The position numbers were made by a program, and so were the translations under genes. From NCBI RefSeq assembly GCF_024124375.1, contig NZ_JAMXRZ010000010.1, positions 1 to 51,866 on the forward strand: DNA of 51,866 bases. Reading direction: 5' to 3'. The notes beneath the pieces are model-generated. The model had not been told where the DNA came from, searched no databases, and saw nothing but the letters and a program-made list of their open reading frames with translations. Shown piece after piece: positions 11,909 to 33,389 of the stretch. The first letter of the stretch is position 1; the number at the start of each line of letters is the position of its first letter. The stretch is from Klenkia sp. PcliD-1-E. GTDB taxonomy: Bacteria > Actinomycetota > Actinomycetes > Mycobacteriales > Geodermatophilaceae.

Positions 11909-11910
11909 CG

Positions 11911-12950: not shown

Positions 12951-12956
12951 TAGGGT
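12951..12956 (+). promoter_or_regulatory. Leaderless -10 box for the GNAT gene
   Basis: TAGGGT followed by 6 nt and GTG 12963; no Shine-Dalgarno sequence is present. Confidence 0.6.
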
Positions 12957-12962
12957 TCGGGT

Positions 12963-14688: not shown

Positions 14689-14737
14689 GAACGCTGCACT
14701 ACCCGACGGTCACACCAGCGGAAACCCGGGATACGGG

Positions 14738-15271: not shown

Positions 15272-15364
15272 CGCTGGTCCTCCTCGGACGTCGACGGTCG
15301 GTAGCACCCAACCTAGGAGGGGGAGGCCCGGCCCGCTCGATGTGGGAACCCGGCCGCCCGCCCG

Positions 15365-15370
15365 TACCGT
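15365..15370 (+). promoter_or_regulatory. Leaderless -10 box for the HAD / GH65 operon
   Basis: TACCGT followed by 6 nt and GTG 15377. Confidence 0.6.
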
Positions 15371-15376
15371 GCAGTC

Positions 15377-16108: not shown

Positions 16109-18462
16109 CCGAGGGGCGGGCGCACTTCCCGATCGAGCCGTGGGCGCTGACCGAGACCTCGATCGACCACGCCAGCCTCGGCGTCAACGAGTCGGTGTTC
16201 TCCCTGGCCAACGGGCACATCGGCATGCGCGGAACGCTGGAGGAGGGCGAGCCCTCCGTCGTGCCGGGCACCTACCTCAACGGCTACTTCGAGGAGCGCC
16301 CGCTGCCCTACGCCGAGGCCGGCTACGGCTTCCCCGAGATGGGCCAGACCGTCGTCAACGTCACCGACGGCAAGCTGATCCGGCTGCTGGTCGGGGACTC
16401 CCCGCTGGACCTGGACTACGGGCACGTCGTCTCCCACCGCCGCACCCTGGACCTGCGCGCCGGCGTGCTGCAGCGGTGCACCGAGTGGCGCTCGCCCAAC
16501 GGCCGCACCGTCGAGGTGAGGAGCACCCGGCTGGTGTCGCTGACCCGCCGGTCGGTCGCCGCGATCCGCTACGAGGTGCGCTGCACCGACGACGGCGGGG
16601 ACCTCTACGTGGCACTGCAGTCGGACCTGCTGGCCAACGAGGTGGTCGAGAACTCCGGGTCCGGTGACCCGCGTGCGGCGGCCGCGCTGCGCACGCCGCT
16701 GGTGTCCGAGCAGCACACCGGCAAGGACCGGCACGCCGTCCTGGTGCACCGGACCAGGGTCAGCGGGTTGCGGATGGCCGCCGGCATGGACCACGAGGTG
16801 CGCACCCCCGACAAGCACGACGAGTCCATCGAGGTGTCCCCCGACCTGGCCCGCTACACCCTGGCCGCGCGGTTGCCGGCGGGGGAGAAGCTCCAGCTGA
16901 CGAAGTACCTGGCCTACGGCTGGTCCTCGCGGCGCTCCTCCGCCGCGGTCCGCGACCAGGTCGAAGGTGTCCTCGGCATCGCCAAGCTGGCCGGCTGGGA
17001 GCGGCTGACCGCCGAGCAGCGGGAGCTGCTGGACCGGCACTGGGCGCAGGCCGACGTCACCATCGAGGGCGACGACGAGCTGCAGCAGGCCGTGCGCGTG
17101 GGCATGTTCCACGTCCTGCAGGCCGGCCTGCGGGCCGAGCGCCAGCCCATCCCGGCCAAGGGGCTCACCGGCCCCGGCTACGACGGGCACGCCTTCTGGG
17201 ACACCGAGACCTACGTGCTGCCGGTGCTCACCTACACCGCGCCCGAGGCGGTCCGCGACGCGCTGATCTGGCGCTGGTCGACCCTGGACCTGGCCCGCGA
17301 GCGCGCCCGGGTGCTGGGCCAGCAGGGTGCGGCGTTCCCGTGGCGGACGATCCGCGGCGAGGAGACCAGCGGCTACTGGCCGGCCGGCACCGCCGCCTTC
17401 CACGTCAACGCCGACATCGCCGACGCCGTCGCCCGGTACTGGCACGCCACCCAGGACGAGTCCTTCGACGTCGACCACGGCACCGAGCTGCTGGTCGAGA
17501 CCGCCCGGCTGTGGGCGTCGCTGGGCCACATGGACGACGGACGCGGATTCCGCATCGACGGCGTCACCGGCCCCGACGAGTACACCGCGGTCGTCGACAA
17601 CAACGTCTACACCAACCTCATGGCGCAGCGGAACCTGCGCGAGGCCGCCGCCGCGGTGGCCCGCCGTCCCGAGGTCGCGGCCCGGCTGCAGGTCACCGAC
17701 GAGGAGGTCGCGGCCTGGGGCGAGGCCGCCGACCACATGCGCATCCCGTTCGACGACGAGCTCGGCGTGCACATGACCAGCGAGGGCTTCACCCGCCACC
17801 AGGAGTGGGACTTCGAGGGCACCCCGCCCGAGAAGTACCCCCTGCTGCTGCACTACCCCTACTTCGAGATCTACCGCACGCAGGTGGTCAAGCAGGCCGA
17901 CCTGGTCATGGCCCTGCACCTGCGCGGGGACGCCTTCACCCCCGAGCAGAAGGCCGCCGACTTCGCCTACTACGAGGCCCGCACCGTGCGGGACTCCTCG
18001 CTGTCGGCCGCGCAGCAGGCGGTGGTGGCCGCGGAGGTCGGCCACCTGGACCTGGCCTACGACTACTGGGGCGAGGCCGCGCTCACCGACCTGCAGAACC
18101 TGCACGGCAACTCCGGGCACGGCCTGCACATCGCGTCGCTGGCCGGCGGGTGGACCGTCGCGGTCGCCGGGTTCGGCGGCATGCGCGACCACGACGGACA
18201 GCTCTCCTTCGCCCCCCGGTTGCCGCCCCGGCTGACCGGCCTGGGCTTCCGGGTGGTCTACCGGGGCCGCTGCCTGCGGGTGCGCGTCACGCAGGAGGCC
18301 GCCACCTACCAGCTGGTGTCGGGTGAGGACCTGGAGATCACCCACCACGGCCAACCGGTCACCGTGACGTCCGCGGAGCTGGTGCTCGACGTCCCGCCGG
18401 CCCCCGAGGTCGAGCCGGTGCACCAGCCCGCGCACTGCGCCCCGCGCCGCCGGGGGCGCTGA
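16105..18462 (+). CDS. Glycoside hydrolase family 65 disaccharide phosphorylase
   Basis: 785 residues, the normal GH65 length. N-terminal beta-sandwich (SLGVNESVFSLANGHIGMRG, a family signature), linker, then an (alpha/alpha)6 barrel with general acid E492 in GVTGPDEYTAVVDNNVYTN and the phosphate-binding region around SLAGGWTVAVAGFGG. GH65 enzymes phosphorolyse maltose, trehalose or kojibiose to beta-glucose 1-phosphate. Sequence alone does not decide the substrate; HWAQADVTIEGDDE and FPWRTIRGEETSGYWPAG are typical of the maltose/trehalose groups. GTG 16105 overlaps the phosphoglucomutase stop. Confidence 0.95.
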   Translation: MTEGRAHFPIEPWALTETSIDHASLGVNESVFSLANGHIGMRGTLEEGEPSVVPGTYLNGYFEERPLPYAEAGYGFPEMGQTVVNVTDGKLIRLLVGDSPLDLDYGHVVSHRRTLDLRAGVLQRCTEWRSPNGRTVEVRSTRLVSLTRRSVAAIRYEVRCTDDGGDLYVALQSDLLANEVVENSGSGDPRAAAALRTPLVSEQHTGKDRHAVLVHRTRVSGLRMAAGMDHEVRTPDKHDESIEVSPDLARYTLAARLPAGEKLQLTKYLAYGWSSRRSSAAVRDQVEGVLGIAKLAGWERLTAEQRELLDRHWAQADVTIEGDDELQQAVRVGMFHVLQAGLRAERQPIPAKGLTGPGYDGHAFWDTETYVLPVLTYTAPEAVRDALIWRWSTLDLARERARVLGQQGAAFPWRTIRGEETSGYWPAGTAAFHVNADIADAVARYWHATQDESFDVDHGTELLVETARLWASLGHMDDGRGFRIDGVTGPDEYTAVVDNNVYTNLMAQRNLREAAAAVARRPEVAARLQVTDEEVAAWGEAADHMRIPFDDELGVHMTSEGFTRHQEWDFEGTPPEKYPLLLHYPYFEIYRTQVVKQADLVMALHLRGDAFTPEQKAADFAYYEARTVRDSSLSAAQQAVVAAEVGHLDLAYDYWGEAALTDLQNLHGNSGHGLHIASLAGGWTVAVAGFGGMRDHDGQLSFAPRLPPRLTGLGFRVVYRGRCLRVRVTQEAATYQLVSGEDLEITHHGQPVTVTSAELVLDVPPAPEVEPVHQPAHCAPRRRGR

Positions 18463-18466
18463 GGGA

Positions 18467-19159
18467 TCAGGTCAGCCAGCGGACGGCGAGCGCCAGCGAC
18501 CCCAGGCTCAGGGCGAGGAAGACCCCCACCCACACCAGCCCGGGGACGCCGGTGAGGCGGGCGAGCTGGTCGGCGTCGCTGTCCGGGGTGGGACGGCGGC
18601 GCCGCTGGGCCTGCAGCTCCCACACCGCCCGCGGGGCGGCCAGCAGCAGGAACCAGACGACGACGTGGGCGAACGCGGCCTGCCACTGCCCGGGAAGCCA
18701 CCAGGTCGCGGCGAACACCAGGCCCCCGGTGACCAGCACCGACCACAGGCCGTAGAAGTTGCGGATCTGCAGCAGGAGCAGGGCCAGCAGGGCCAGCAGC
18801 ACCCACAGCACCCCGATCGCGTGCCCGGCGGCCAGCAGCGCGGCCGCACCCAGGCCGAACAACGCCGGCCCGGGGTAACCGGCGAACGCGGTGGCCACCA
18901 TGCCGGGCCCGGAGGGCCGGCCCGCGGACACGGTGACCCCCGAGGTGTCCGAGTGCAGCCGGATGCCGGCCAGCCGCCGGCCGGTCACCAGCGCGGCCAC
19001 GCCGTGGGCGCCCTCGTGGGCGATCGTGACCGCGTTGCGGCTGACCCGCCAGAGGTCGCGCTGGGCGACCAGCACCAGCGCGACGAGGGCGGTGCCGACC
19101 AGCCAGGGGGTGGTGAGCGGGGGAGAGGTGGCGGTGACGCGCGCCCAGAGCTGGTCCAT
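18467..19159 (-). CDS. M50-like membrane metalloprotease
   Basis: 230-residue membrane protein with about five hydrophobic segments. The zinc motif HEGAH lies in NAVTIAHEGAHGVAALVTG, followed by a second M50B-type zone (FYGLWSVLVTGG). The M50B family of actinobacteria is mostly uncharacterised; site-2 proteases release membrane-bound factors. A TGG-like V-S-A-G-R segment follows the first histidines. I placed the start at ATG 19159, where the first helix begins soon after; a GTG at 19198 would add 13 residues. Confidence 0.78.
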   Translation of the reverse strand: MDQLWARVTATSPPLTTPWLVGTALVALVLVAQRDLWRVSRNAVTIAHEGAHGVAALVTGRRLAGIRLHSDTSGVTVSAGRPSGPGMVATAFAGYPGPALFGLGAAALLAAGHAIGVLWVLLALLALLLLQIRNFYGLWSVLVTGGLVFAATWWLPGQWQAAFAHVVVWFLLLAAPRAVWELQAQRRRRPTPDSDADQLARLTGVPGLVWVGVFLALSLGSLALAVRWLT

Positions 19160-19233
19160 CGCGGTCCAGTGAACCGCGTGCGACTCGCCGTGCGGCACAC
19201 TGACGCGGCCGCCCCACCGTCGAGGAGGACCCC

Positions 19234-19950
19234 GTGAGCGCCCCGCCGTTCGTCTACCGCGTCGTGATGGCCGTGGGCACCCCCGCCGCGAAGTGGTGGG
19301 GGCGCATGGAGGTGCGCGGGCTGGAGCACCTCCCGGCCTCCGGGCCGACCGTCGTGATGGCCAACCACGACAGCCAGTGGGACCCGGTGGTCGCCGGCAT
19401 CGCGACGCTGGGCCACCGGCAGCTGCAGGCCCTGGCCAAGGACTCGCTCTGGAAGAACCCCGTGGTGGGGAAGTGGCTGGACGGCATGGGCCAGATCCCG
19501 ATCGCCCGGGGCCGCGGGGACGCCAACGCCCTGCAGGCGGCGATCGACGTGCTGCGGGCGGGCGGTGCCATCGGTGTCTTCCCCGAGGGCACCGTCTCCC
19601 GCGGGCGCACGATGCGCTTCCTGTCCGGGGCCGGCCGGCTCGCCCTCGCGGTGCCCGGCACCACCGTCGTCGGCCTGCGCATCACCGGGCAGGAGGACAT
19701 CGTCCGGTTCCCCACGCGCCCCCGGGTGCTGGTGGAGTTCCTGCCCCCGGTGACCCCGCGGGAGGGCGAGTCGGCCGTCGCGCTGACCAACCGGGTGATG
19801 AGTGAGGTCCGTGCCGGCGCCCCACCGGTCATCCCGGGCCGGGCCAAGAAGGCGGAGAAGCACCGCCGGCTGGTCGCCGAGCACGAAGCGGCCAAGCGTC
19901 CCCCGGCCTCACCCGGCGAGGGCGGGGCAGCCGAGGACGGCGACCGGTAG
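19234..19950 (+). CDS. 1-acylglycerol-3-phosphate acyltransferase family (PlsC)
   Basis: 238 residues. The NHx4D acyltransferase motif is NHDSQWD and the substrate motif is FPEGTVSRG. It would acylate lysophosphatidic acid at the inner membrane face. Strong GAGGAGG site before GTG 19234. The last 50 residues are rich in K, E and A and lie outside the fold. Two more PlsC-like proteins are in the window (27430-28353 and 40731-41612), so this one's exact acceptor is not fixed. Confidence 0.92.
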   Translation: MSAPPFVYRVVMAVGTPAAKWWGRMEVRGLEHLPASGPTVVMANHDSQWDPVVAGIATLGHRQLQALAKDSLWKNPVVGKWLDGMGQIPIARGRGDANALQAAIDVLRAGGAIGVFPEGTVSRGRTMRFLSGAGRLALAVPGTTVVGLRITGQEDIVRFPTRPRVLVEFLPPVTPREGESAVALTNRVMSEVRAGAPPVIPGRAKKAEKHRRLVAEHEAAKRPPASPGEGGAAEDGDR

Positions 19951-20062
19951 CACCAGGCAGGCCACGGTCACCGGCCAGCGCCCGGCACGGCCCCGCCGCA
20001 CGAGGGGGTCCAGCACCGTGCCAGCCTGCAGCAGGACCTGGGCGACTGTCCGACCCCGGCCC

Positions 20063-20068
20063 TAGGGT
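20063..20068 (+). promoter_or_regulatory. -10 box for the cysteine hydrolase gene
   Basis: TAGGGT lies 34 bp before ATG 20103. The leader then contains GGAGG, so this gene is translated with a ribosome-binding site rather than leaderless. Confidence 0.5.
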
Positions 20069-20102
20069 GCAGCCACCAACCGCACCCGACGTGGAGGACG
20101 CC

Positions 20103-20657
20103 ATGACCACCCTGACCGACCGGACAGGCACCGCACTGCTGGTGATCGACGTGCAGAACGGGGTGATGGCCGCCTCGCACGACGCCGACGCGGTCGTCGG
20201 CCGCATCGGGGAGCTGGTCGAGCGGGCCCGGGCCGCCGACGTGCCCGTGGTCTGGGTGCAGCACAGCTCCGATGAGCTGCCGCAGGGCAGTGACCAGTGG
20301 CAGTACGTGTCCCAGCTCCGGCGCGCCGAGGGCGAGGCGCTGGTGCACAAGCAGTACGGCGACTCCTTCGAGGGCACCGACCTGGACCAGGTGCTCGCCG
20401 ATGCCGGCGTGGGCCGGCTGGTGGTCACCGGTGCACAGACCGACGCCTGCATCCGCTCCACCATCCACGGCGGCTTCACCCGGGGTTACGACGTCACCCT
20501 GGTCGGCGACGCGCACACCACCGAGGACCTGTCGGCCTACGGGGCACCGCCGCCCGCCGACGTCATCTCCCACACCAACCTCTACTGGGGCTTCCAGGAC
20601 GCCCCGGGCCGCACCGCCGCGGTCGTCCCGGCCGCCGACGTCGAGTTCGCTGGGTGA
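20103..20657 (+). CDS. Isochorismatase-family cysteine hydrolase
   Basis: 184 residues with the family triad D16 (LLVIDVQNG), K83 (LVHKQYG) and C116 (TGAQTDACIRST). The cis-peptide region is VVTGAQT. Members hydrolyse nicotinamide, N-carbamoylsarcosine or related amides; the substrate here is open. ATG 20103 follows GGAGG. It overlaps the next VOC gene by 4 bp. Confidence 0.9.
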   Translation: MTTLTDRTGTALLVIDVQNGVMAASHDADAVVGRIGELVERARAADVPVVWVQHSSDELPQGSDQWQYVSQLRRAEGEALVHKQYGDSFEGTDLDQVLADAGVGRLVVTGAQTDACIRSTIHGGFTRGYDVTLVGDAHTTEDLSAYGAPPPADVISHTNLYWGFQDAPGRTAAVVPAADVEFAG

Positions 20658-21016
20658 GCGGGGTCCGCGTCCTGGGCATCGTACCGAACCTGCCGGTGGA
20701 CGACGTCGAGGACGCCTCCGGGTTCTGGTCGGGGTTCCTCGGTCTGCGGGAGCAGGAGTTCAGCCTCGGCTGGGTCGCCCGCTGGACCGACCCGGACACC
20801 GGCCAGCACGTGCAGCTGGTCACCCGGGACGCCACCGCGCCCGAGGACTCCGCCCTCACGGTGCAGGTCGCCGACGTCGAGGAGGCCTACGCGCAGGCGC
20901 AGGCGGCCGGGTACCAGGTGGTGCACCCGCTGACCACCGAGCCGTGGGGCGTGCGGCGGTTCTTCGTCCGGGCGCCCGACGGCACGGTGGTGAACATCGC
21001 CCAGCACAGCGGCTGA
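20654..21016 (+). CDS. VOC-family protein
   Basis: 120 residues. Opening VLGIVPNLPVDDVEDASGFWSGFLGL and closing RRFFVRAPDGTVVNIAQH are the VOC hallmarks. GTG 20654 overlaps the hydrolase stop (GTGA), so the two are translationally coupled; that coupling suggests they act on the same or linked compounds, but the compound is unknown. Confidence 0.82.
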   Translation: MSGVRVLGIVPNLPVDDVEDASGFWSGFLGLREQEFSLGWVARWTDPDTGQHVQLVTRDATAPEDSALTVQVADVEEAYAQAQAAGYQVVHPLTTEPWGVRRFFVRAPDGTVVNIAQHSG

Positions 21017-21027
21017 GGCCGCTGTCC

Positions 21028-21033
21028 TAGAGT
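21028..21033 (+). promoter_or_regulatory. Leaderless -10 box for dapA
   Basis: TAGAGT followed by 6 nt and GTG 21040. Confidence 0.6.
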
Positions 21034-21039
21034 GCCGCG

Positions 21040-22017
21040 GTGAGCTCCACGCCCCGGTTCGGCCGCCTCCTCACCGCCGTCGCCACGGCCTTCGACGCCG
21101 ACGAGCGGGTCGACCTCGACGCCACCGTGGCGATCGCCCGGCACGTGGTCGACACCGGCAGCGACGGCGTCGTGGTCTCCGGGACGACGGGGGAGGCCCC
21201 AACCACGACCGTGCCCGAGGACGGCGAGGTGCTGGCCGCCGTCCGCGAGGCCCTCGGCGACCGGGCCGTGGTCGTCGCCGGAGTGGGCACGAACGCGACC
21301 GCGCACTCGGTGGAGATCGCCGAGCAGGCGGCCCGGGTCGGCGCCGACGGACTGCTGCTGGTCACCCCGTACTACAACAAGCCCAGCCAGAACGGCATCC
21401 TGCGGCACTTCCGGACGGTCGCCGGGGTGAGCGACATCCCGGTGATGCTCTACGACGTCCCCGGCCGCACCGGGTCCTCGATCGCTCTGGACACCTACCG
21501 GGCGGCGCTGGACATCGAGACGGTCGTCGCGGTGAAGGACGCCACCGGCAACCCGGCGCACGCCGCGCGGTTGGTGGAGCTGGGCTACGAGGTCTACTGC
21601 GGCGACGACGCGCTGACCCTGGGCTACCTGGCCTACGGCGCGGTCGGGCTGGTCAGCGTGGTGGCGCACGCGGCGGGACGCGAGCTGCGCGCGATGGTCG
21701 AGGCGTTCCTGGCCGGCGACCACGGCCGGGCCCTGGAGCTGCACACCCGGCTGCTGCCGGGCTTCGACGCGGTCATGGGGGTGCCCAACTACGGCGCGAC
21801 GACGGCGAAGGCGGCCCTGCAGCTGCTGGGCGTGCTCGACAACCGGCGGGTGCGCCAGCCGCTGGCGGAGCTCGACGACGCCGAGGTGGCGGCCCTGCGC
21901 ACGGGGCTGGTCGCGGCCGGGCTGCTCGGCGCGGGGGAGCAGCCCGGCGGCGTGGACAGCAGCCGCGACCTCGACCCGTGGTGGGGCACCTACCGCGGCC
22001 TCGCCGCCGACATGTGA
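21040..22017 (+). CDS. dapA: 4-hydroxy-tetrahydrodipicolinate synthase (DHDPS family)
   Basis: 325 residues, slightly long owing to a C-terminal tail after ALRTGLVAAG. It condenses pyruvate and aspartate semialdehyde in lysine and diaminopimelate synthesis. Schiff-base lysine K166 in VVAVKDATGN; SGTTGEAPTTT and TPYYNKPSQNGILRHF are the family signatures and YDVPGRTG carries the catalytic tyrosine. DapA and other N-acetylneuraminate-lyase superfamily members look alike, but the motifs favour DapA. A GNAT gene overlaps its stop by 4 bp. Confidence 0.93.
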   Translation: MSSTPRFGRLLTAVATAFDADERVDLDATVAIARHVVDTGSDGVVVSGTTGEAPTTTVPEDGEVLAAVREALGDRAVVVAGVGTNATAHSVEIAEQAARVGADGLLLVTPYYNKPSQNGILRHFRTVAGVSDIPVMLYDVPGRTGSSIALDTYRAALDIETVVAVKDATGNPAHAARLVELGYEVYCGDDALTLGYLAYGAVGLVSVVAHAAGRELRAMVEAFLAGDHGRALELHTRLLPGFDAVMGVPNYGATTAKAALQLLGVLDNRRVRQPLAELDDAEVAALRTGLVAAGLLGAGEQPGGVDSSRDLDPWWGTYRGLAADM

Positions 22018-22550
22018 CCGAGCAGCTGCCGGAGATCGTCGTCCGACCGCGGGTGCCGGCCGACCTGCCGGTGCTCGTGGCGATCCTGCGGCGCAGCCAC
22101 GACGAGCACCGTTACCCGGTGCGTGCCTCGGTGGTGCGGGCCGACTGGCTCGCGGTGCCCACCGAGCTCTTCTCGGCCGTCGCGGAGCGCGACGGCCGGG
22201 TCGTCGGCCACGTGGCGCTGCACCCGGCCGTCATCGACGACGAGGGGGAGCGGCTCGCAGTACGCGGCTGGTCGGCCGCCACGGGGATCCGGCGGGAGGG
22301 GCTGGCCGTGGTGTCCCGGCTGGTCACCGACGGCACCGTGCGCGGGGCGGGCCTGGCGCTGCTGGGGGCCGCCGTCGCGGCCGCGCGGGCGATGCACCGG
22401 GAACCGGTGCTCCTCGTGGACCCCACGGCGGCGGCGCGGGGTTTCTACCTCCGGCACGGGTGGCGGGAGGTCGGTACCGCCCGCCAGCACTGGGGCGAGC
22501 ACGGGGTGGACGCCGTCCTCATGGTGGTCCAGCGGACCGGGGGAGACTGA
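22014..22550 (+). CDS. GNAT-family N-acetyltransferase
   Basis: 178 residues. GNAT strands and the CoA loop are recognisable in VVGHVALHP and LVTDGTVRGAGLALLGAAV, with the C-terminal YLRHGWREVG. GTG 22014 overlaps the dapA stop (GTGA), so it is translationally coupled to dapA. The acceptor is unknown. Confidence 0.85.
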   Translation: MTEQLPEIVVRPRVPADLPVLVAILRRSHDEHRYPVRASVVRADWLAVPTELFSAVAERDGRVVGHVALHPAVIDDEGERLAVRGWSAATGIRREGLAVVSRLVTDGTVRGAGLALLGAAVAAARAMHREPVLLVDPTAAARGFYLRHGWREVGTARQHWGEHGVDAVLMVVQRTGGD

Positions 22551-22554
22551 CCGG

Positions 22555-23016
22555 GTGTTCCACATCGCGTTCCACGAGCCGCGGATCCCGCCGAACACCG
22601 GCAACGCGATCCGGATGGTGGCGGCCACGGGGGCGCACCTGCACCTGGTCGAGCCGCTGGGCTTCGACCTCTCCGACGCCAAGCTCCGCCGGGCCGGCCT
22701 GGACTACCACGACCTGGCCTCGGTGACCGTGCACCCGGGCCTGGGGGAGCTGCTGGCCGCCCTGCCCGGCGCCCGGGTGTTCGCCTTCACCGCGGGCGGC
22801 ACCACCCGGTACACCGACGTCGCCTACGTGCCCGGCGACGTGCTGCTCTTCGGCCCGGAGCCGACGGGTCTGGCGCCGGAGGTGCTGGCCCACCCGAGGG
22901 TGACCGACCGGGTGCGGCTGCCGATGCTGGCCGGCCGGCGGTCGCTGAACCTGTCCAACACCGCGGCGGTGGCCGCCTACGAGGCCTGGCGTCAGCACGA
23001 CTTCGCCGGCTCCTGA
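22555..23016 (+). CDS. trmL: tRNA (cytidine(34)-2'-O)-methyltransferase (TrmL/YibK-type)
   Basis: 153-residue SPOUT methyltransferase. Hallmarks are IAFHEPRIPPNTGNAIR, the LLFGPEPTGL loop and the knot RLPMLAGRRSLNLSNTAAVAAYE. TrmL methylates the wobble ribose in leucine tRNAs using S-adenosylmethionine. GTG 22555 has a GGGGGAG site at about 22540 and begins 4 bp after the GNAT stop. Confidence 0.93.
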   Translation: MFHIAFHEPRIPPNTGNAIRMVAATGAHLHLVEPLGFDLSDAKLRRAGLDYHDLASVTVHPGLGELLAALPGARVFAFTAGGTTRYTDVAYVPGDVLLFGPEPTGLAPEVLAHPRVTDRVRLPMLAGRRSLNLSNTAAVAAYEAWRQHDFAGS

Positions 23017-23071
23017 CCCGAGCCCGCTCGAATGGTCGTACTGGGTCATCTCCCGCGCCTCCTACCGGCGA

Positions 23072-23077
23072 TACGTT
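23072..23077 (+). promoter_or_regulatory. Leaderless -10 box for the antitoxin gene
   Basis: TACGTT followed by 6 nt and ATG 23084. Confidence 0.5.
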
Positions 23078-23083
23078 GACGGC

Positions 23084-23320
23084 ATGGACGTGGTGACGGT
23101 GCGGGAGCTGCGGAACAACGGGGGAGAGGTGCTCACGCGCGTCGCCCGCGGCGAGCGGTTGGCGGTGACGCGCGACGGCGTGGAGGTTGCCGAGCTGCGG
23201 CCCCGCACCCGGCGGAGCCCGGCGCCGGCCGACCTCGTCGCCCGGCGCCGCACCCTCCCGGCCGTCGCCCCACGGCCCTGGCGGGCCGATGTCGACGAAC
23301 TGCTCGACCCGTCGCTGTGA
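23084..23320 (+). CDS. Phd/VapB-type antitoxin
   Basis: 78 residues. VTVRELRNNGGEVLTRVARGE followed by VTRDGVEVAELRPR is the Phd/YefM DNA-binding antitoxin fold (about 1-50). The rest, down to ADVDELLDPSL, is the toxin-binding tail. It overlaps the start of the broken PIN toxin gene by 4 bp (GTGA), the normal coupling for such modules. It may now repress only itself, or counter a toxin elsewhere. Confidence 0.88.
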   Translation: MDVVTVRELRNNGGEVLTRVARGERLAVTRDGVEVAELRPRTRRSPAPADLVARRRTLPAVAPRPWRADVDELLDPSL

Positions 23321-23718: not shown

Positions 23719-23768
23719 ATGTATCCCGTTCTTGACAATTTGCTCCTTATGACCAGAATGAGATACAT
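23719..23768. promoter_or_regulatory. Operator-like inverted repeat and promoter of the HTH/AbiEii operon
   Basis: ATGTATCCCGTT (23719-23730) and AATGAGATACAT (23757-23768) match as an inverted repeat in 10 of 12 positions (7 outer bases perfect). The -35-like TTGACA (23732-23737) lies between them, and the right arm reaches the start codon. The block is markedly AT-rich for this genome. Autorepression by the HTH protein is the natural reading. Confidence 0.55.
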
Positions 23769-24228
23769 GCCGGCGCCCAGTCCGTACACCAGCGCGGAAC
23801 AGCAGGCCGACCTGGTGCGCCTGGGCACCCGGTTGCGGGAGCACCGCAAAGCGCTCGGCGTCACGGCCGTCGCCTGCGCCGAGGCCGCCGGCGTGTCCCG
23901 GGTGACCCTGCACCGGGTCGAGGCGGGCAACCCGTCGGTGACCATCGGCGCCTACAGCAACGTGGCGGCCGCGCTCGGCCTGCACCTGGTCGTACCGGTC
24001 CTGGAGCGGCCGGCAGGGGAGCGGGCCACGGTGGTGGTCGGCGACTACCCGGGTCTGCGGTCCCTGGCCTGGCAGACCGATGCCGGCACCGAGCTGACCG
24101 AGGTGGAGGCGCTCAACCTCTACGAACGCGGCTGGCGCCACCTCGACCAGGCGTCGCTGACCGAACGTGAACGGGCATTCGTGCAGCACCTCGCGGACAC
24201 CTACAGCGGGGGATCGCTCCTTGTTTGA
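23767..24228 (+). CDS. XRE-family HTH protein, probable antitoxin
   Basis: 153 residues. The HTH runs from LVRLGTRLREHRKALG to VSRVTLHRVEAGNPSVTIGAYSNVAAALGL (about 20-75). The C-terminal LYERGWRHLDQASLTERERAFVQHLADTY is not a known domain to me. Its 8-bp overlap with an AbiEii-type toxin and the operator repeat indicate a toxin-antitoxin regulator, similar in layout to AbiE or mycobacterial MenA/MenT pairs. The start is uncertain: ATG 23749 and ATG 23758 are in frame and none has a clear ribosome-binding site; I use the one nearest the HTH. Confidence 0.78.
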   Translation: MPAPSPYTSAEQQADLVRLGTRLREHRKALGVTAVACAEAAGVSRVTLHRVEAGNPSVTIGAYSNVAAALGLHLVVPVLERPAGERATVVVGDYPGLRSLAWQTDAGTELTEVEALNLYERGWRHLDQASLTERERAFVQHLADTYSGGSLLV

Positions 24229-24931
24229 CCGGCCGCACCACCGCCTGGTCGCCGAGGTGCTGTCCCGGCTGGATGCCGACGTCCTGACCGGGCACCGGTG
24301 CTGGTTCGGGGGTGGGACCGCGATCGCCCTGTCGTGCGGTGAGTACCGGGAGTCGGTGGACATCGACTTCCTCGTCTCCGACCAGCGGTCCTACCGGGCG
24401 CTGCGACAGGCCGTGAAGGCCGACGGACTATCGGTCCTGGCCACCGGTGACCTCGACCTGGTTCGCCCGGCGCGGGTGGACAACCACGGCATCCGGGCGG
24501 CCGTGCGGTCCGGTGGTGTCCCCATCAAGTTCGAGGTCGTCCTGGAGGGTCGGATCGAGCTCGACGAGCCGCCGCCGCAGCAGGCAATCTGCGGCATCCG
24601 CACCCTGACCCGGGTGGACCAGGTCGCGAGCAAGCTGCTGGCCAACGACGACCGCTGGGCCGACCGCTCGACGTTCAGCCGGGACCTGGTCGACCTGGCC
24701 ATGATGGCACCCAAGACGACGGAGCTGGTCGCCGGCGCCGAGAAGGCGGTCGGTGCCTACGGCCGGTCGGTGGGCGCCAGCCTGCGCAGCGCGGTCGAGC
24801 AGCTCCGCGAGCGGCCGCAGCGGCTCGACGAGTGCATGCGTGCGCTGGCGATGCGCGCACCCCGGGCCGTGCTCTGGCAGAGCATCCGCGACGTCGCGAG
24901 CAGGTGCGCGGGGATCGAGGTCATGGCCTGA
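24221..24931 (+). CDS. AbiEii/AbiGii-type nucleotidyltransferase toxin (MenT-like)
   Basis: 236 residues from TTG 24221 (GGGGGA at 24208-24213). The nucleotidyltransferase signature is CWFGGGTAIAL (30-37) with the metal pair D47-x-D49 in RESVDIDFLV, as in DUF1814 / AbiEii proteins, which transfer nucleotides to RNA and arrest growth. The later VDQVASKLLANDDRWADRSTFSRDLVDLAMM is also conserved in that family. Partner HTH overlaps by 8 bp. The stop codon is 2 bp before the dif-like site, so the gene is at the edge of the Xer target. Target RNA is unknown. Confidence 0.85.
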   Translation: MFDRPHHRLVAEVLSRLDADVLTGHRCWFGGGTAIALSCGEYRESVDIDFLVSDQRSYRALRQAVKADGLSVLATGDLDLVRPARVDNHGIRAAVRSGGVPIKFEVVLEGRIELDEPPPQQAICGIRTLTRVDQVASKLLANDDRWADRSTFSRDLVDLAMMAPKTTELVAGAEKAVGAYGRSVGASLRSAVEQLRERPQRLDECMRALAMRAPRAVLWQSIRDVASRCAGIEVMA

Positions 24932-24933
24932 CG

Positions 24934-24961
24934 AGTTGACATAATGTCGATTATCGGCGCA
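24934..24961 (-). other. dif-like XerC/XerD recombination site
   Basis: Read on the + strand: AGTTGACATAA (24934-24944), centre TGTCGA, TTATCGGCGCA (24951-24961). On the - strand this is XerC arm TGCGCCGATAA, a 6-bp centre and XerD arm TTATGTCAACT, which fits the bacterial dif plan (11-6-11) and the actinobacterial form with CCGATAAT and ACATTATGTCAA. E. coli dif ends in TTATGTTAAAT. It is strikingly AT-rich here and lies 2 bp after the AbiEii stop. Confidence 0.88.
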
Positions 24962-25291: not shown

Positions 25292-25735
25292 TCAGCCCCG
25301 CTCGGCGGCGGCCCTCAGGGTGGCGAGGCCCTTCTCGAAGGTCGGGCCGAGGAACTTCTCCATCGGCAGCAACCGCATCAGCCGACCCTGCCGACCGCTG
25401 CCCGACCAGGTGACCACCGTGCCGCCGTCGTCCTCGGCGAGGGTGAACGTCGACGTGCTGGAGGACCGGATCGGCTTGGTGTTCTCCTGCTCGACGACCA
25501 CCCGGTCCGGCTCGACGGCCGCCATCCGCATCGAGCCGCTGCCGGCCTTGAACGACCCGGCCCAGCGGTAGCCGCTCCCAGCGCCGGTCCCGTCGTAGTC
25601 CCGGGACATGGCCGGGTCGAGGTCCTCGAAGGGCGACCAGTCCCGCCACCGGCGGAAGTCGGCCAGCAACGCGTGGACGGCGGCCGCGGGTGCGGCGACC
25701 CGGGTCTGCCGGGTGACGGTGTAGGTGTCGGGCAC
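25292..25735 (-). CDS. SRPBCC-family (START-like) protein
   Basis: 147 residues. VTRQTRVAAPAAAVHALLADFRRWRDWSPFEDLDP, with a GTVVTWSGSGRQGR strand and a final amphipathic helix, is the polyketide_cyc/SRPBCC hydrophobic-ligand fold. GTG 25735 is preceded by CACGAT plus 6 nt, a likely leaderless start; the frame is open further, but contains no comparable start. Ligand and pathway are unknown. Confidence 0.85.
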   Translation of the reverse strand: MPDTYTVTRQTRVAAPAAAVHALLADFRRWRDWSPFEDLDPAMSRDYDGTGAGSGYRWAGSFKAGSGSMRMAAVEPDRVVVEQENTKPIRSSSTSTFTLAEDDGGTVVTWSGSGRQGRLMRLLPMEKFLGPTFEKGLATLRAAAERG

Positions 25736-25816
25736 GCGCGGATCGTGCCAGATCCGGACGCTCCCCAGCCGGGTCGGCGCCCCGGTGTCGAGTGCCCCTC
25801 GGCGGCGCCGGTCCCT

Positions 25817-25822
25817 TAGGCT
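25817..25822 (+). promoter_or_regulatory. Leaderless -10 box for the small lipoprotein
   Basis: TAGGCT followed by 6 nt and ATG 25829. Confidence 0.55.
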
Positions 25823-25828
25823 CCGCAC

Positions 25829-26071
25829 ATGCAGATCCGTCGTCCGGTCGTCTCCGTCCTCGCCGCCCTGGCCCTGTTCGGGGGCACCGCCGCCCTGACC
25901 GGCTGCAGCGACGTGAACGGCCTGGAGCAGCGCACCGGCACGTCGAAGGACTCCACCGAGAACTTCTCGGGCAACGACCCGACGAGCGTCGAGCAGGGCA
26001 GCGTCTACAACCACGGCAACGAGCGGCCCGGCAGCGGCGTCGAGAACGCCGAGGGCGGCCCGGTCGGCTGA
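25829..26071 (+). CDS. Small hypothetical lipoprotein
   Basis: 80 residues. A signal peptide MQIRRPVVSVLAALALFGG leads to the lipobox L-T-G-C with Cys at about 26. The rest is a short, hydrophilic, Gly- and Ser-rich tail (TGTSKDSTENFSGN, EGGPVG at the end) with no domain I recognise. Probably anchored outside the membrane. Confidence 0.7.
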   Translation: MQIRRPVVSVLAALALFGGTAALTGCSDVNGLEQRTGTSKDSTENFSGNDPTSVEQGSVYNHGNERPGSGVENAEGGPVG

Positions 26072-26656: not shown

Positions 26657-27433
26657 GTGCCCCCCGCGCGTTTCCCTTTCCTCGAGGGGCCGACGCCCTT
26701 GGCGATGGCCCACCGCGGCGGCGCCGTGGAGCACGTGGAGAACACCTTCCCGGCCTTCGAGGCCTGCGTGGCGATGGGCTACCGGTACCTGGAGACCGAC
26801 GTCCGGGCCACCGCCGACGGCGTGCTCGTCGCCTTCCACGACCCGGTCCTCGACCGGGTGACCGACCGCACCGGCAGGATCGACGCGCTGCCCTGGAGCG
26901 AGGTCCGGCACGCCCTCATCGGGGGCCGCGAACCCGTGCTGGCCCTGGAGGACCTGCTCACCGCCTGGCCCGACGTCCGGTTCAACATCGACGTCAAGAC
27001 CGCCGGGGTCCTCGCTCCCCTGGCGGCGCTGATCCGGCGCACCGGCACGCTGGACCGGGTCTGCCTGGCCTCTTTCTCCGACGCCCGGGTCGCCGCGGCC
27101 CGCCGGTTGCTGGGCCCGGGCCTGTGCACCTCGCTCGGCCCCAAGGGCGTCGCGGCGCTGCGGCTGTCCTCCTACTCCCCCCGCGCCGCCGGGCTGGTGC
27201 GCATCCAGGCCGGCTGCGCGCAGGTCCCCGTCGAGCTCGGCGGGCGTCCGGTCGTCGACGAGCGGTTCCTGGCGGCCGCGCACGAGCGCAGCCTGCAGGT
27301 GCACGTGTGGACCGTGGACGACCCGGCCGAGGTGCACCGGCTGCTCGACCTCGGGGTCGACGGCATCCTCACCGACCGGCCCTCGATGCTGCGGGACGTC
27401 TACGCCGAGCGCGGGGTCTGGAGCGCGGCGTGA
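26657..27433 (+). CDS. Glycerophosphodiester phosphodiesterase (GDPD)
   Basis: 258 residues, TIM barrel. Metal/catalytic motifs: AHRGGAVEHVENTFPAF (the HRG-x-ENT signature), ETDVRATADGVLVAFHD, and WTVDDPAEVHRLLDLGVDGILTD. It hydrolyses glycerophosphodiesters to glycerol 3-phosphate and an alcohol. There is no signal peptide, so it is cytosolic. The PlsC-like gene overlaps its stop by 4 bp, which suggests a shared role in lipid turnover. Confidence 0.94.
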   Translation: MPPARFPFLEGPTPLAMAHRGGAVEHVENTFPAFEACVAMGYRYLETDVRATADGVLVAFHDPVLDRVTDRTGRIDALPWSEVRHALIGGREPVLALEDLLTAWPDVRFNIDVKTAGVLAPLAALIRRTGTLDRVCLASFSDARVAAARRLLGPGLCTSLGPKGVAALRLSSYSPRAAGLVRIQAGCAQVPVELGGRPVVDERFLAAAHERSLQVHVWTVDDPAEVHRLLDLGVDGILTDRPSMLRDVYAERGVWSAA

Positions 27434-28353
27434 GCCTGCGCGATTGGCGGCCGGTGCCGCCGCCGCTGCCCGAGGACCTGGAGGGATCAGTCGCCGACGA
27501 CGACCCCGACTGGTTCGCCCGCGAACTGGCGATCGCCGCGCACCCGCCGTGGTGGCTGTGGCGGTTCCTGCTCACCACCGTCTCCCCGGCGGTGTCGCTG
27601 TTCGGGCGGGTGCAGGTCACCGGCGGGGTGCCCGAGCACCTGCGCGGCGGGCCGCTGATCCTGGCCGCCAACCACGTCGGGGACTACGACACCTTCACCG
27701 TGGCCGCCGCGCTGCACCGGCTGGGCGTCGTCCCCCGGTTCCTGGCCACCGGCGGGATCATGCGGGCCCCGGTGGCCGGGCCCATGCTCGAACGGGCCGG
27801 CGGCGTCCGGGTCGACCGGGGCACCGACGTCGCCGCGCACGCCATGCGGGTGGTGCTCGTGGCGCTGGAGCACGGCGGTCAGGTGCTGGTCTACCCCGAG
27901 GGCCGGGTCGGGCTGAGCGCCGACGGCTGGCCCGAGCGCGGCCGCACCGGGCTGGCTCGGCTGGCCCTGCAGACCCGGGTCCCGGTGCTGCCGGTCAGCC
28001 AGTGGGGCGCGCACGAGGTGCTGCAGTACGCCAACGACTGGGGCAAGCTGCGCACCGCGCTGTCCGCGGCCTGGCGCCAGCCCGCCCTCCGGGTGCACGT
28101 CGGGCCGCCGGTCCCGCTGGACGACCTCGAGGCCGGCCGGGTCGGTGACGCCCACCGCGCCCGCACCCGCATCATGGCCGCGATCACCCGCGGGCTGGTG
28201 CCGCTGCGGGCCGGTGAGCCCGCCGACCGGATCGCCTTCCACGACCCCACCCGGCCGGTGCGGGCCGTCGCGGCCTTCCCGGGGGGACGCGTCCCCGACG
28301 ACGTGCCCGGTGCTGGACCACCCCACCCCGCGGCTGACACCCTGCGCCGGTGA
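27430..28353 (+). CDS. Lysophospholipid acyltransferase family protein (PlsC)
   Basis: 307 residues. Acyltransferase box NHVGDYD (NHx4D), and VYPEGRVG in the FPEG position. The N-terminal segment PPWWLWRFLLTTVSPAVSLFG is a likely membrane anchor. GTG 27430 overlaps the GDPD stop. Acceptor lipid not determinable; lysophosphatidate is likely. Confidence 0.92.
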   Translation: MSLRDWRPVPPPLPEDLEGSVADDDPDWFARELAIAAHPPWWLWRFLLTTVSPAVSLFGRVQVTGGVPEHLRGGPLILAANHVGDYDTFTVAAALHRLGVVPRFLATGGIMRAPVAGPMLERAGGVRVDRGTDVAAHAMRVVLVALEHGGQVLVYPEGRVGLSADGWPERGRTGLARLALQTRVPVLPVSQWGAHEVLQYANDWGKLRTALSAAWRQPALRVHVGPPVPLDDLEAGRVGDAHRARTRIMAAITRGLVPLRAGEPADRIAFHDPTRPVRAVAAFPGGRVPDDVPGAGPPHPAADTLRR

Positions 28354-29684
28354 GCACCGCCGACACCACCGCGACGCCCGACCGCGCCCTGCGCCGCGAG
28401 CGCACCGGTTGGTACTCCTACGACTGGGCGATGTCGGTGTTCAACACCAGCGTCACCACGGTCTTCCTCGGCCCCTACCTGACGTCGGTGGCCCGCGACG
28501 CCGCCGGGCCGGACGGGAAGCTGGGGTTCCTGGGCATCGACCCGGGCAGCTGGTTCTCCTTCGTGCTGTCGTTCTCGGTGCTCGCCCAGGTGCTGGTCCT
28601 GCCGATCACCGGCGCCGTCGCCGACCGCACCGGACGCCGTCGCGAACTGCTGGCCGGGTTCGCGTTCCTCGGTGCCGCGGCCTGCACCGGTCTGTTCTTC
28701 GTCGCCGACGGCCGCTACCTGCTGGGCGCCCTGCTCTTCGTGGTGGCCAACATCAGCTTCGGCGCGGCCACCGTCGTCTACTACTCCTGGCTGCCCGACC
28801 TGGCCGCCCCCGACGAGCGGGACAAGGTCTCCAGCCGCGGCTGGGCCGTCGGCTACGTCGGCGGGGCGCTGCTGCTCGCCGTCCACCTGGGCCTGTTCCT
28901 GTCCGCGGAGTCCCTGGGCCTGACCAGCGGTGAGGCCGTGCGGATCTGCCTGGCCACCGCCGGGCTGTGGTGGGGTGCGTTCACCGTCTTCACCGTCTCG
29001 CGGCTGCGCAACCGGCCGGTCGCGGCGACGGAGGGGCGGACCGGGAGCGGGTTCCGTCAGCTGGCCCGGACGCTGAAGGAGATGCGGGCCTTCCCGCTCA
29101 CCCTGTGGTTCCTGGGCGCCTACCTGCTGTTCAACGACGGCGTGCAGACCGTCATCTCGCTGTCGGCGGTCTACGCCACCGAGGAGCTCGACCTGGACCA
29201 GTCGGTGCTCACCGGGGCCATCCTCATGGTGCAGGTGGTCGCCATCGCCGGGGCGCTGGGCCTGGGCCGGGTCGCCGCCCGGTACGGCGCCACCCGCACG
29301 GTGCTGGGCTGCCTGGTGGCCTGGACGGCGGTGCTGGTGGCCGCGTTCTTCCTGCAGGCCGGCGCGGTGGCCCAGTTCTACGCCCTCGCCGCCGTCATCG
29401 GCCTGGTGCAGGGCGGCACCCAGGCACTGTCCCGGTCGCTGTTCAGCCACCTCATCCCGGCCGGCAAGGAGGCCGAGTACTACGGCTTCTACGAGATCAG
29501 CGACCGCGGGACCAGCTGGCTCGGCCCGCTGGCCTTCGGCCTGACCTACCAGCTCACCGGCTCCTACCGGCTGGCCATCATCAGCCTGGTGGTCTTCTTC
29601 GTCGCGGGCTTCGTGCTGCTGGCCCGGCTGCCGATGCGCCGGGCCGTGGTCGAGGCGGGCAACGTGCCACCGGAGAAGCTGTGA
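28350..29684 (+). CDS. MFS transporter, UMF1 / Atg22-like
   Basis: 444 residues with 12 predicted membrane segments. RTGWYSYDWAMSVFNTSVTTV, with DWA near the N-terminus, and VLVLPITGAVADRTGRRRELLAG are UMF1 marks. Members of this branch export unknown metabolites; Atg22 exports amino acids from the yeast vacuole. GTG 28350 overlaps the PlsC-like stop. Confidence 0.93.
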   Translation: MSTADTTATPDRALRRERTGWYSYDWAMSVFNTSVTTVFLGPYLTSVARDAAGPDGKLGFLGIDPGSWFSFVLSFSVLAQVLVLPITGAVADRTGRRRELLAGFAFLGAAACTGLFFVADGRYLLGALLFVVANISFGAATVVYYSWLPDLAAPDERDKVSSRGWAVGYVGGALLLAVHLGLFLSAESLGLTSGEAVRICLATAGLWWGAFTVFTVSRLRNRPVAATEGRTGSGFRQLARTLKEMRAFPLTLWFLGAYLLFNDGVQTVISLSAVYATEELDLDQSVLTGAILMVQVVAIAGALGLGRVAARYGATRTVLGCLVAWTAVLVAAFFLQAGAVAQFYALAAVIGLVQGGTQALSRSLFSHLIPAGKEAEYYGFYEISDRGTSWLGPLAFGLTYQLTGSYRLAIISLVVFFVAGFVLLARLPMRRAVVEAGNVPPEKL

Positions 29685-30400
29685 ACGCCGTCCCCGCCTC
29701 CGGCGACCGCCGCCGGCACGCCGCGCCGGCCCACCTGACCTTCTTCCACGGCCCGATGGACTGCGGCAAGTCCACCCTCGCTCTGCAGGTGGACCACAAC
29801 CAGAGCCGGCAGGGCCGGCACGGGCTGCGGCTGACCCAGGGCGACCGGTCGCGGGCCGCCCGGATCAGCAGCCGGGTCGGGCTGTCGCGGGAGGCGGTCG
29901 AGGTCGACGGCACGACCGATCTGCGGCTGCTGGTGCGGGACCGCTGGGCGGCCGGGCACCGGGTGGACTACGTCGTCGTCGACGAGGCGCAGTTCCTCTC
30001 CGCCCGCCAGGTCGACCAGCTCGCCGAGCTGGTCGACCAGTCGCACGTGGACGTCTACGCCTTCGGGCTGACCACCGACTTCCGCGCCCAGCTGTTCACC
30101 GGCACCCAGCGGCTGTTCGAGCTCGCCGACGTGGTGCAGCGCATCCAGGTCGAGGTGCTGTGCTGGTGCGGCGCGCCGGGGTTGCTCAACGCCCGCGTCG
30201 TCGACGGTGTCATGGTGCGCCAGGGCGAGACCGTCGTCGTCGCCGACACCGCCCCCGACGCGGCCCCGGACGAGGTGCGCTACCAGGTCCTCTGCCGTCG
30301 GCACCACGTCGGCGGGCAGCTCGGACCCACCCCCACCGGCCCCGGTCAGCTCACCCTCGCCGGGCAGCCCCTGGCCGACGGGCAGGTGGCCGTGCGATGA
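29681..30400 (+). CDS. tdk: Thymidine kinase
   Basis: 239 residues. Walker A GPMDCGKST (24-32), Walker B/base DEAQF (101-105, E102), and lasso zinc ligands in CWCGAPG and LCRRHH. It phosphorylates thymidine from salvage. The C-terminal LTLAGQPLADGQVAVR is typical of the actinobacterial form. GTG 29681 overlaps the transporter stop, so it closes the operon that starts at GDPD. Confidence 0.95.
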   Translation: MNAVPASGDRRRHAAPAHLTFFHGPMDCGKSTLALQVDHNQSRQGRHGLRLTQGDRSRAARISSRVGLSREAVEVDGTTDLRLLVRDRWAAGHRVDYVVVDEAQFLSARQVDQLAELVDQSHVDVYAFGLTTDFRAQLFTGTQRLFELADVVQRIQVEVLCWCGAPGLLNARVVDGVMVRQGETVVVADTAPDAAPDEVRYQVLCRRHHVGGQLGPTPTGPGQLTLAGQPLADGQVAVR

Positions 30401-30417
30401 TGAGCGACTGACGCGAC

Positions 30418-30443
30418 GGAATCTCCGCGCGACTTCCTTCGTT
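30418..30443 (+). promoter_or_regulatory. SigR-type ECF promoter for rbpA
   Basis: GGAAT (30418-30422), 18 bp, then GTT (30441-30443): the classic GGAAT-N18-GTT promoter of the SigR/SigH thiol-oxidative-stress sigma factor. rbpA belongs to the SigR regulon in Streptomyces coelicolor, which supports the call. The predicted leader before ATG 30560 is about 110 nt. Confidence 0.75.
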
Positions 30444-30559
30444 GGACCCACCGGCCCCCTCCGGGTGACGCCCCGCTGCTCGCGCTGCGGACGCGTCACC
30501 GACGTGCCGATGGGGCATGACGCACGGACCGACACACGAGCACGAGAGGACGGTGTGCC

Positions 30560-30904
30560 ATGGGCGAGCGTTCCCTTCGCGGCAGCCGACTGGGCAGCGT
30601 CAGCTACGAGACCGAGCGCAACACCGCGCCGATCGAGCGGCAGTACGCCGAGTACCGCTGCGAGCAGGGCCACGTCGTGACCGTGCCCTTCGCCGACGAC
30701 GCCGAGCTCCCCGACACCTGGGAGTGCAAGTACGACGGCTCCGTGGCCAAGCTGGTGGGCGGCGCCGAGCCGGCCCCCAAGAAGGTCAAGCCGCCGCGGA
30801 CCCACTGGGACATGCTCCTGGAGCGTCGCTCGGTCGACGACCTCGAAGAGGTCCTGGCCGAGCGCTTGGACGTGCTGAAGAGCCGCCGCACCAAGGTCAG
30901 CTGA
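30560..30904 (+). CDS. rbpA: RNA polymerase-binding protein RbpA
   Basis: 114 residues, an actinobacteria-specific protein that stabilises the housekeeping sigma factor with RNA polymerase and the open complex. Visible: N-terminal tail with GSRLGSVSYETERN, the RbpA core (RYxCEQGH and WECKYDGS zinc-like Cys pairs), and the sigma-interaction C-terminus THWDMLLERRSVDDLEEVLAERLDVLK. Its promoter carries a SigR-type motif, and a strong hairpin follows. Confidence 0.98.
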   Translation: MGERSLRGSRLGSVSYETERNTAPIERQYAEYRCEQGHVVTVPFADDAELPDTWECKYDGSVAKLVGGAEPAPKKVKPPRTHWDMLLERRSVDDLEEVLAERLDVLKSRRTKVS

Positions 30905-30911
30905 CCCACTG

Positions 30912-30957
30912 ACGCAGAAGGGCCCCTCCGGATCGCCCCGGAGGGGCCCTTCTGCGT
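30912..30957. terminator. Bidirectional terminator between rbpA and fxsA
   Basis: Perfect 20-bp inverted arms, 30912-30931 and 30938-30957, with a 6-nt loop; the core is GGGCCCCTCCGG / CCGGAGGGGCCC. It lies between convergent rbpA and the fxsA end at 30961. Confidence 0.92.
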
Positions 30958-30960
30958 GGG

Positions 30961-31446
30961 TCAGGGCTGGTCGACGACGGTGCCCTCGACGACGCGGGTG
31001 CTGGTCACGTGCTGCACGTCCGGGTCGGGGTCGACCTGCGCGGGGCGGGTGCTCTGCACCCGCACCGGGCCGCGCGCTCGGTCGGGGAGCCGGTTCAGCA
31101 CCGCCCGCGCGATGAGCGCCCGGGGCAGCCTGCGGGTGCCGGGCAGCAGGCAGAGCAGCCCCAGCACGTCGCCGACGAAGCCCGGCAGGATCATCAGGAA
31201 CCCGCCGGCGGCGACCAGGCCGGCGTCGCCCAGCGCGGTGCCCGGGGCGCGGTGCTCCTGGGCCCGCAGCCGCAGCTCGGTCAGCGTCTTGGTGCCCTGC
31301 TTGGCCAGCAGGACCCAGCCCAGCGCGCTGGTCGCCAGCGACGCCAGGATGGCCCAGCCCAGCCCGATCCAGGCCGCCACGGCGATGAACACCAGCAGCT
31401 CGGCCAGAGCGCCCAGGCCCAGCACGGTGCGCAGTCGGCTCGTCAT
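30961..31446 (-). CDS. fxsA: FxsA-family membrane protein
   Basis: 161 residues. The FxsA core is in LGWAILASLATSALGWVLLAKQG and LVAAGGFLMILPGFVGDVLGLLCLLPGTRR, three or four membrane segments. In E. coli FxsA relieves F-plasmid exclusion of phage T7; its normal role is unclear. ATG 31446 overlaps the lnt stop by 4 bp. Confidence 0.92.
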   Translation of the reverse strand: MTSRLRTVLGLGALAELLVFIAVAAWIGLGWAILASLATSALGWVLLAKQGTKTLTELRLRAQEHRAPGTALGDAGLVAAGGFLMILPGFVGDVLGLLCLLPGTRRLPRALIARAVLNRLPDRARGPVRVQSTRPAQVDPDPDVQHVTSTRVVEGTVVDQP

Positions 31447-33116: not shown

Positions 33117-33389
33117 CGCCCGAGCATCCCACCCGCGGCGCGGTGACCGGTGCACCGGCGACGGGTGCACCGGCCGCCGGCGGCGGCACCCCGGCCTTCG
33201 GGCCGCCGGTCCGGGGAACTGGGTGTCCTCGGACCGTCGTTGTCTGGTGGCGCGGGGTGCCGCCCGGCGATCCCTCGGGCTCGACCGCCCCGGGGTCGCG
33301 TGGTGCGACACCGGAACCCTAGGGAGCCGGGGCCGCCCCGCACAGGGCATCGGGACACCTGCGGCAGGCCGTTACCCGATCGTTACGTG

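Follow-up and report, generated by a model that had tools for sequence, protein, structure and literature searches.

Evidence for a chromosomal dif site in Klenkia sp. PcliD-1-E at the polarity switch of the heptamer GGGGGAG

A 28-bp site on the - strand of a Klenkia sp. PcliD-1-E contig, at positions 24934..24961, is almost certainly the chromosomal dif of this genome, and would serve ordinary XerCD/dif dimer resolution. The DNA analysed (the window, 51,866 bp) is the entire contig C11 of a draft assembly in 262 contigs and 4,511,692 bases (4.51 Mb). The site had been proposed to be a dif in an initial annotation, and this identification is supported by its single copy, its preservation amid diverged flanks, its position approximately opposite dnaA in relatives and a switch in the orientation of GGGGGAG. 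The best evidence for the terminus is this motif polarity, not GC skew.

Results

The site, TGCGCCGATAATCGACATTATGTCAACT, consists of an XerC-binding arm, TGCGCCGATAA (24951..24961, - strand), a 6-bp central region, TCGACA (24945..24950, - strand), and an XerD-binding arm, TTATGTCAACT (24934..24944, - strand). The bases read exactly as first claimed for a 28-bp site of 11-6-11 layout on the - strand; which arm of 24934-24961 belongs to XerC and which to XerD is our assumption, by analogy with the E. coli dif, and it matches the earlier assignment. The centre TCGACA is identical in the seven other Klenkia sites found (G001-G007). The site had also been described as an AT-rich stand-out in GC-rich DNA, which it is: its G+C is 0.43, a value that low is reached by only 0.09% of the 28-base stretches of the window, and 2-kb stretches of the window range from 0.71 to 0.78.

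We analysed the copy number of the site and its agreement with dif sites of other genomes. With up to three mismatches, the 28-mer has one match in the window, with 0.00 expected from 100 dinucleotide shuffles. A genome-wide search for further copies, with the centre left free and up to three mismatches, returned one match in the 4.51-Mb draft (a count that covers the draft assembly; a second copy could sit in a gap) and none for the reversed control. The site differs at 2 of 28 positions from a consensus of 107 sites collected outside Klenkia, a consensus compiled here and not a published one, which agrees with the 'about two deviations' from actinobacterial dif noted at the outset. A weight matrix made from the same 107 sites (leave-genus-out) scored the site 55.8 and the runner-up in the window -9.5, a gap that overstates the difference, since the pattern used to pick the 107 sites fixes CGATAA and most of the XerD arm; these bases are conserved by construction in all counts of pattern-picked sites. 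At the 15 positions left free by pattern and filter, however, the base in the window is the most frequent one at 13. As fractions of the 107 sites, the free positions of the XerC arm gave 0.88 for G4 and 0.92 for C5, the last three bases of the centre, ACA (A15, C16, A17), gave 0.94, 0.99 and 0.97, and the free positions of the XerD arm gave 0.96 for A25, 0.75 for A26, 0.22 for C27 and 0.82 for T28.

The dif pattern is widespread among relatives. Allowing up to two mismatches, it was found in 37 of the 41 nearest genomes, our own included (the other four had no match), and its backwards version in none of the 41. With one mismatch, and again counting our own genome, it was present in 94 of 96 genomes of the family, 112 of 121 of the order and 130 of 148 of the class, with backwards matches in 2, 3 and 5 genomes, respectively. 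Both family genomes without a match at one mismatch (G024 and G322) belong to genus g8. Genus g69 (family f30) accounts for twelve of the 18 class genomes that lack a match; only 1 of its 13 genomes, with sizes of 6-10 Mb, has one. Judging by these sizes, the genus is probably Streptomyces, whose linear chromosomes would not require a dif. The 28-mer is kept across relatives while the flanks diverge within 60 bp, and the longest aligned stretches of the window share 88-92% identity with G001 and G002. On the XerD side of 115 dereplicated sites, the signal outside the 28-mer drops after about 3 bp, and weaker signals are seen at greater distances to either side.

These observations bear on whether the 28-mer could be no dif but an AT-rich stretch, fortuitous or promoter-like, belonging to the neighbouring toxin-antitoxin region or to the next gene. 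Its reverse complement does begin with AGTTGACATAAT, which resembles a -35 box, and AT-rich stretches are rare in the window. However, relatives whose flanks have diverged carry the 28-mer at the same position, and it is present through the class; it is flanked by the 3' ends of two convergent genes, not by a gene start; and motif polarity inverts at it. We consider this explanation highly improbable, the least likely of those examined. A short ORF of 88 aa with no assigned function, from a mechanical ORF list (24944-25210), opens inside dif.

Two side observations concern dif sequences of relatives. Several dif-like sites, often with unusual centres, occur in some genomes (G116:C1, G078, G063, G188 and others), two of those in G116 being 7.8 kb apart; such extra sites are possibly due to Xer-using mobile elements or to chance. 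A partly palindromic stretch like CTGCGTATTGCATCWGATGA is seen a few bases past the XerD arm in 6 of the 115 sites (L157, L163, L166, L168, L176 and L077), spread over four families of the order; the window lacks it.

GGGGGAG points toward dif in all 30 of its copies in the window. To the left of dif, 19 heptamers lie within 2352..23126 (the first starts at 2352, the last spans 23120-23126), all on the + strand (19+/0-), and to the right 11 lie within 27175..48687 (the nearest at 27175-27181, the farthest at 48681-48687), all on the - strand (0+/11-). Among the 1478 heptamers with at least 20 copies in the window GGGGGAG is the most polar, and its switch interval is 4 kb. We considered gene strand as the cause of this polarity and rejected it, as 9 of the 24 gene-assigned copies are on the template strand; the underlying split of 15 coding, 9 template and 6 unassigned copies is approximate, as it comes from a crude GC3 caller that leaves stretches uncalled and probably makes at least one miscall (23062-23622). 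The E. coli motif GGGNAGGG was also tried as the oriented motif and rejected, as it has no polarity in the window (left 3+/6-, right 1+/1-); around the dif of G006, where 82 copies point toward dif and 38 away, its polarity is far below that of GGGGGAG.

The polarity of GGGGGAG is shared by relatives. In 18 family loci of 20 kb, the counts were 118/1 on the left and 2/134 on the right, that is, 252 of 255 copies toward dif, and the nearest copies pooled from these loci confine the switch to -266 to +223 bp around dif. This set leaves out G012, G015, G017 and G022 (short contig or contig end) and G008 and G024 (no match), and the polarity counts also exclude L050, a further dif-like site in G003 that is weaker than the first and was retrieved together with the 18 loci. 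In 20 loci from other families of the order, 129 of 136 copies pointed toward dif and 7 away, with G042 having no copy at all. Over the rest of the G006 chromosome, 20 stretches gave 130 copies toward the terminus and 25 away, the polarity fading near the origin. An unbiased scan of 8-mers in the 400 kb around the G006 dif ranked CGGGGGAG first (78 toward, 4 away), and GGGGGAG, or a string contained in it or containing it, came out on top when 6- to 8-mers were scanned over the 18 family and 20 order loci. By analogy with known FtsK-orienting sequences, GGGGGAG is most likely the motif that FtsK reads. GC skew, in contrast, was set aside as a terminus marker: in 400 kb around dif of the complete relative G006 it is weak, shows no flip at dif and has its cumulative maximum 108 kb beyond it, and the window itself contains no clear skew switch.

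The position of our dif relative to the origin cannot be read from its own genome, because the genome is a draft with dnaA on contig C31 and dif on C11. We therefore turn to relatives, in which the distance from dnaA to dif was 0.476-0.538 of the contig in eight of the eight measured (G006 0.492, G007 0.491, G010 0.514, G025 0.515, G027 0.476, G031 0.538, G036 0.525 and G040 0.477); nine genomes had been picked for long contigs, one of them our own draft, and G007 and G031 have further contigs. Through homology with these relatives, the Klenkia dif, unplaced in its own draft, would lie in the terminus region opposite oriC. The initial annotation had placed the replication terminus in the window, and for the terminus region this is well supported by the polarity switch at dif and the position approximately opposite dnaA in relatives. 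What we claim is that dif is the convergence point of dimer resolution and FtsK transport, which stops short of the meeting point of the forks. According to a passage in Kono et al. 2011 (PMC3025954), the replication termination point need not coincide with dif, and a passage in PMC13342612 likewise has it that the two can differ; PMC3025954 also cites Hendrickson and Lawrence, at one point of its text, for termination near dif.

The surroundings of dif are conserved unequally. The XerC-side DNA keeps its side and its orientation with respect to dif in each of the 18 family loci of 20 kb, with alignments starting at about 25.8 kb of the window in Klenkia and at 26.1-29.7 kb in other genera, and the XerD side is more rearranged than the XerC side. 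The orientation of dif relative to dnaA is not fixed, because G006 (L037) and G007 (L038), of one genus, carry it in opposite orientations; in both, GGGGGAG points at dif from both sides. Such opposite orientations are what inversions around the terminus would produce, and we take them to be harmless.

On the XerD side, dif is immediately preceded by a toxin-antitoxin-like gene pair. An AbiEii-like nucleotidyltransferase gene (24167..24931, + strand; PF08843, 5.9e-22; PADLOC AbiEii, 2.8e-68) has a stop codon that ends 2 bp before dif, and upstream of it is an HTH/AbiEi-like gene, the presumed antitoxin (23719..24228, + strand; PF13560, 5.4e-11; PADLOC AbiEi, 1e-21, residues 104-169), whose true start may be slightly downstream of 23719. 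A Polyketide_cyc2 ORF is convergent with the AbiEii-like gene (25292..26014, - strand, start as listed; PF10604, 2.3e-15), and dif is intergenic because the two converge on it from both sides. No RNA families at gathering score and no tRNA genes were found in the window. On the far side of the cassette slot lies a TrmL-like gene (SpoU family, 4.6e-26; below the curated TrmL cut-offs). In the window, the slot between the TrmL-like gene and dif holds the AbiE-like pair and, at 23084-23601, an ORF for a Phd/YefM-like antitoxin (2.4e-6, narrowly missing the Pfam cut-off) and, after it, a C-terminal VapC-like fragment (a weak NCBIfam match, with no Pfam match); among nine slots compared, the latter two are in the window only. 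The same slot holds the AbiE-like pair alone in G002 and G003 (1228-1229 bp), 578 bp of other DNA in G007 and, in G001 and G004, only 78-79 bp with stretches resembling the toxin gene. The AbiE-like pair was apparently lost in G001 and G004, leaving toxin-gene scraps behind. A 70-bp end of the TrmL-like gene (22908-22977) is repeated at 23606-23675 with 81% identity, and this diverged repeat, flanking the Phd/VapC-like pair, fits a later insertion in the lineage of the window. Upstream of the AbiE-like pair, at about 23719-23775, an imperfect inverted repeat, GTATCTCATC..GATGAGATAC (consensus with G002 and G003), surrounds a TTGACA-like box and is probably the operator of the pair.

A cassette that ends 2 bp from dif could mean that the 28-mer is instead the attachment site, or a dif-module boundary, of a mobile element that uses XerC/XerD, with the AbiE-like genes as cargo. 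The runner-up matrix match (23730-23757, - strand) is at the other edge of the cassette in the same orientation as dif, and toxin-antitoxin genes have been linked with Xer-site modules in Acinetobacter, according to titles and abstracts. However, the match at 23730 scores -9.5 against 55.8 for dif and overlaps the apparent promoter/operator of the cassette, where the inverted repeat is common to G002 and G003, and no second Xer site flanking a cargo was found in the window at up to three mismatches. In the cassette-less G001 and G004, toxin-gene-like stretches remain beside an intact dif (as judged by eye, with a short BLAST match for G004), and therefore an internal deletion is indicated, not Xer excision. 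Moreover, the cassette has a DNA-level match in only G002 and G003 of the 18 family loci, against 18 of 18 for dif. With no second site and an operator-like sequence at 23730, we rejected the cassette as an Xer-dependent integrated element or dif module, and consider a mobile-element origin of the 28-mer highly improbable; the site is best read as the chromosomal dif, and the coming and going of toxin-antitoxin genes 2 bp from it between species is a minor point.

Sequences beside the core may accompany dif in this family. A pyrimidine box with the consensus AACCCCTTTCCG, at -24 to -13 from the end of the XerC arm, emerges from 49 family sites (seen in L032-L049, L266-L292, L088, L099 and L101); its positions -24 to -15 carry as much as 1.33 bits each, where distant flanks never exceed 0.20. 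Leave-one-out scoring placed it among the highest 1% of background scores in 33 of the 41 family sites outside Klenkia. Within Klenkia it is in register in G005 and G006 and shifted by 2 in G007, and in the window and G001-G004 it is outside the top 1% in register. When a shift of up to 3 was allowed, the boxes of the window and G003 had p = 0.006 as the best of seven registers, making a weak, shifted remnant in the window possible. Outside the family, the box was in register in 6 of 74 order sites and 6 of 67 class sites. On the other side, outside the XerD arm at +41 to +70, CTCCCC (that is, GGGGAG toward dif) has 9, 13 and 14 copies in the family, order and class sets, respectively, against 0.06-0.11 per 10 bp far from dif. 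The flank sets comprise 49 sites from 94 matching family genomes, 74 sites from 82 order loci and 67 from 70 class loci, the latter two counted after filtering and dereplication.

The box and CTCCCC are possible accessory elements of dif. In the window itself both are weak or missing, and neither has a bearing on the identity of dif. As a tentative proposal, the dif of Geodermatophilaceae might be larger than its 28-bp core, with the XerC-side box and the XerD-side GGGGAG positioning FtsK or another protein beside XerCD, and with the box decayed or shifted in G000-G004, the species clade to which the window belongs. No paper joining Geodermatophilaceae with a dif site was found in a literature search, nor, by title among the matches listed, any on conserved flanking or accessory sequences at actinobacterial dif. 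Judged by these titles, the box in most of the family sites examined is possibly new, and minor.

The genome encodes the proteins of dimer resolution. An XerD is encoded that scores over the curated cut-off (329.6). The second-best match to the XerD model, at 242.5 bits under that cut-off of 329.6, is a second recombinase, which on this ranking we take as XerC. One FtsK-gamma domain is encoded (87 bits), and it can be aligned to FtsK chains of solved structure, among them 2j5o, 2ve8/2ve9 and 2j5p. We take these structures to be from Pseudomonas and E. coli, and 2ve9 to contain KOPS DNA. KOPS contacts in E. coli FtsK involve N1296, R1300 and E1303; going by the alignments, their Klenkia counterparts seem to be A, R and D, as might be expected if the motif has changed.

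Discussion

The kind of site described here is well known, and nothing in our results alters the understanding of dimer resolution. By what is known from E. coli and mycobacteria, an odd number of crossovers would join sister chromosomes as a dimer, whose two dif copies would meet at the closing septum. FtsK would bring the dif region there by pumping DNA in the direction of oriented motifs, most likely GGGGGAG, and its gamma domain would activate XerD. XerC and XerD would bind the two 11-bp arms and exchange strands around the 6-bp centre, giving two monomers. Binding, strand exchange, activation by FtsK and the reading of GGGGGAG by FtsK are thus steps that we infer for Klenkia from those organisms.

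The practical value lies in the polarity switch. It locates dif in a high-GC family, to a 4-kb interval from the window alone and to a few hundred bases with relatives pooled, a task in which GC skew was of no help in the relative tested. Although the assembly is in 262 pieces, the terminus region of the Klenkia genome can be assigned to one contig, and GGGGGAG becomes a clear candidate for the FtsK-orienting motif of Geodermatophilaceae.

Among known systems, the chromosomal dif of actinobacteria is one of the closest: Kono et al. 2011 (PMC3025954) predict dif in 66 of 66 single-chromosome actinobacteria, and Hendrickson and Lawrence 2007 is cited on actinobacterial dif in a passage of PMC2830990. 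In another passage of PMC2830990, the AIMS octamers (T/C)GGGGGAG of Corynebacterium aurimucosum served to locate dif; together with G(A/T/C)GGGGGA, the same source gives them a leading-strand bias of 856 to 61 copies. The AIMS of C. aurimucosum, as given there, and the motif of the window have the heptamer core GGGGGAG in common; here, unlike in that case, the organism belongs to Geodermatophilaceae and the polarity in the window is complete (30/30). The KOPS motif of E. coli is, according to a passage of PMC13342612, GGGNAGGG. KOPS and GGGGGAG are both G-rich and oriented and point to dif on both arms, whereas in the window GGGNAGGG is without such polarity. An experimental counterpart in a related actinobacterium comes from Xer-based marker excision in M. 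smegmatis, where, as a passage of PMC4789726 describes, the cell's own XerC/XerD recombine dif copies; we liken this mycobacterial dif to ours by function, not base by base. The chromosomal dif of actinobacteria differs from the present case in GC skew, which was uninformative in the relative tested (G006). The Klenkia site is like it in having 28 bp in an 11-6-11 layout, in being single-copy, intergenic and, going by relatives, approximately opposite the origin, and in the XerD, XerC-like recombinase and FtsK encoded in the genome.
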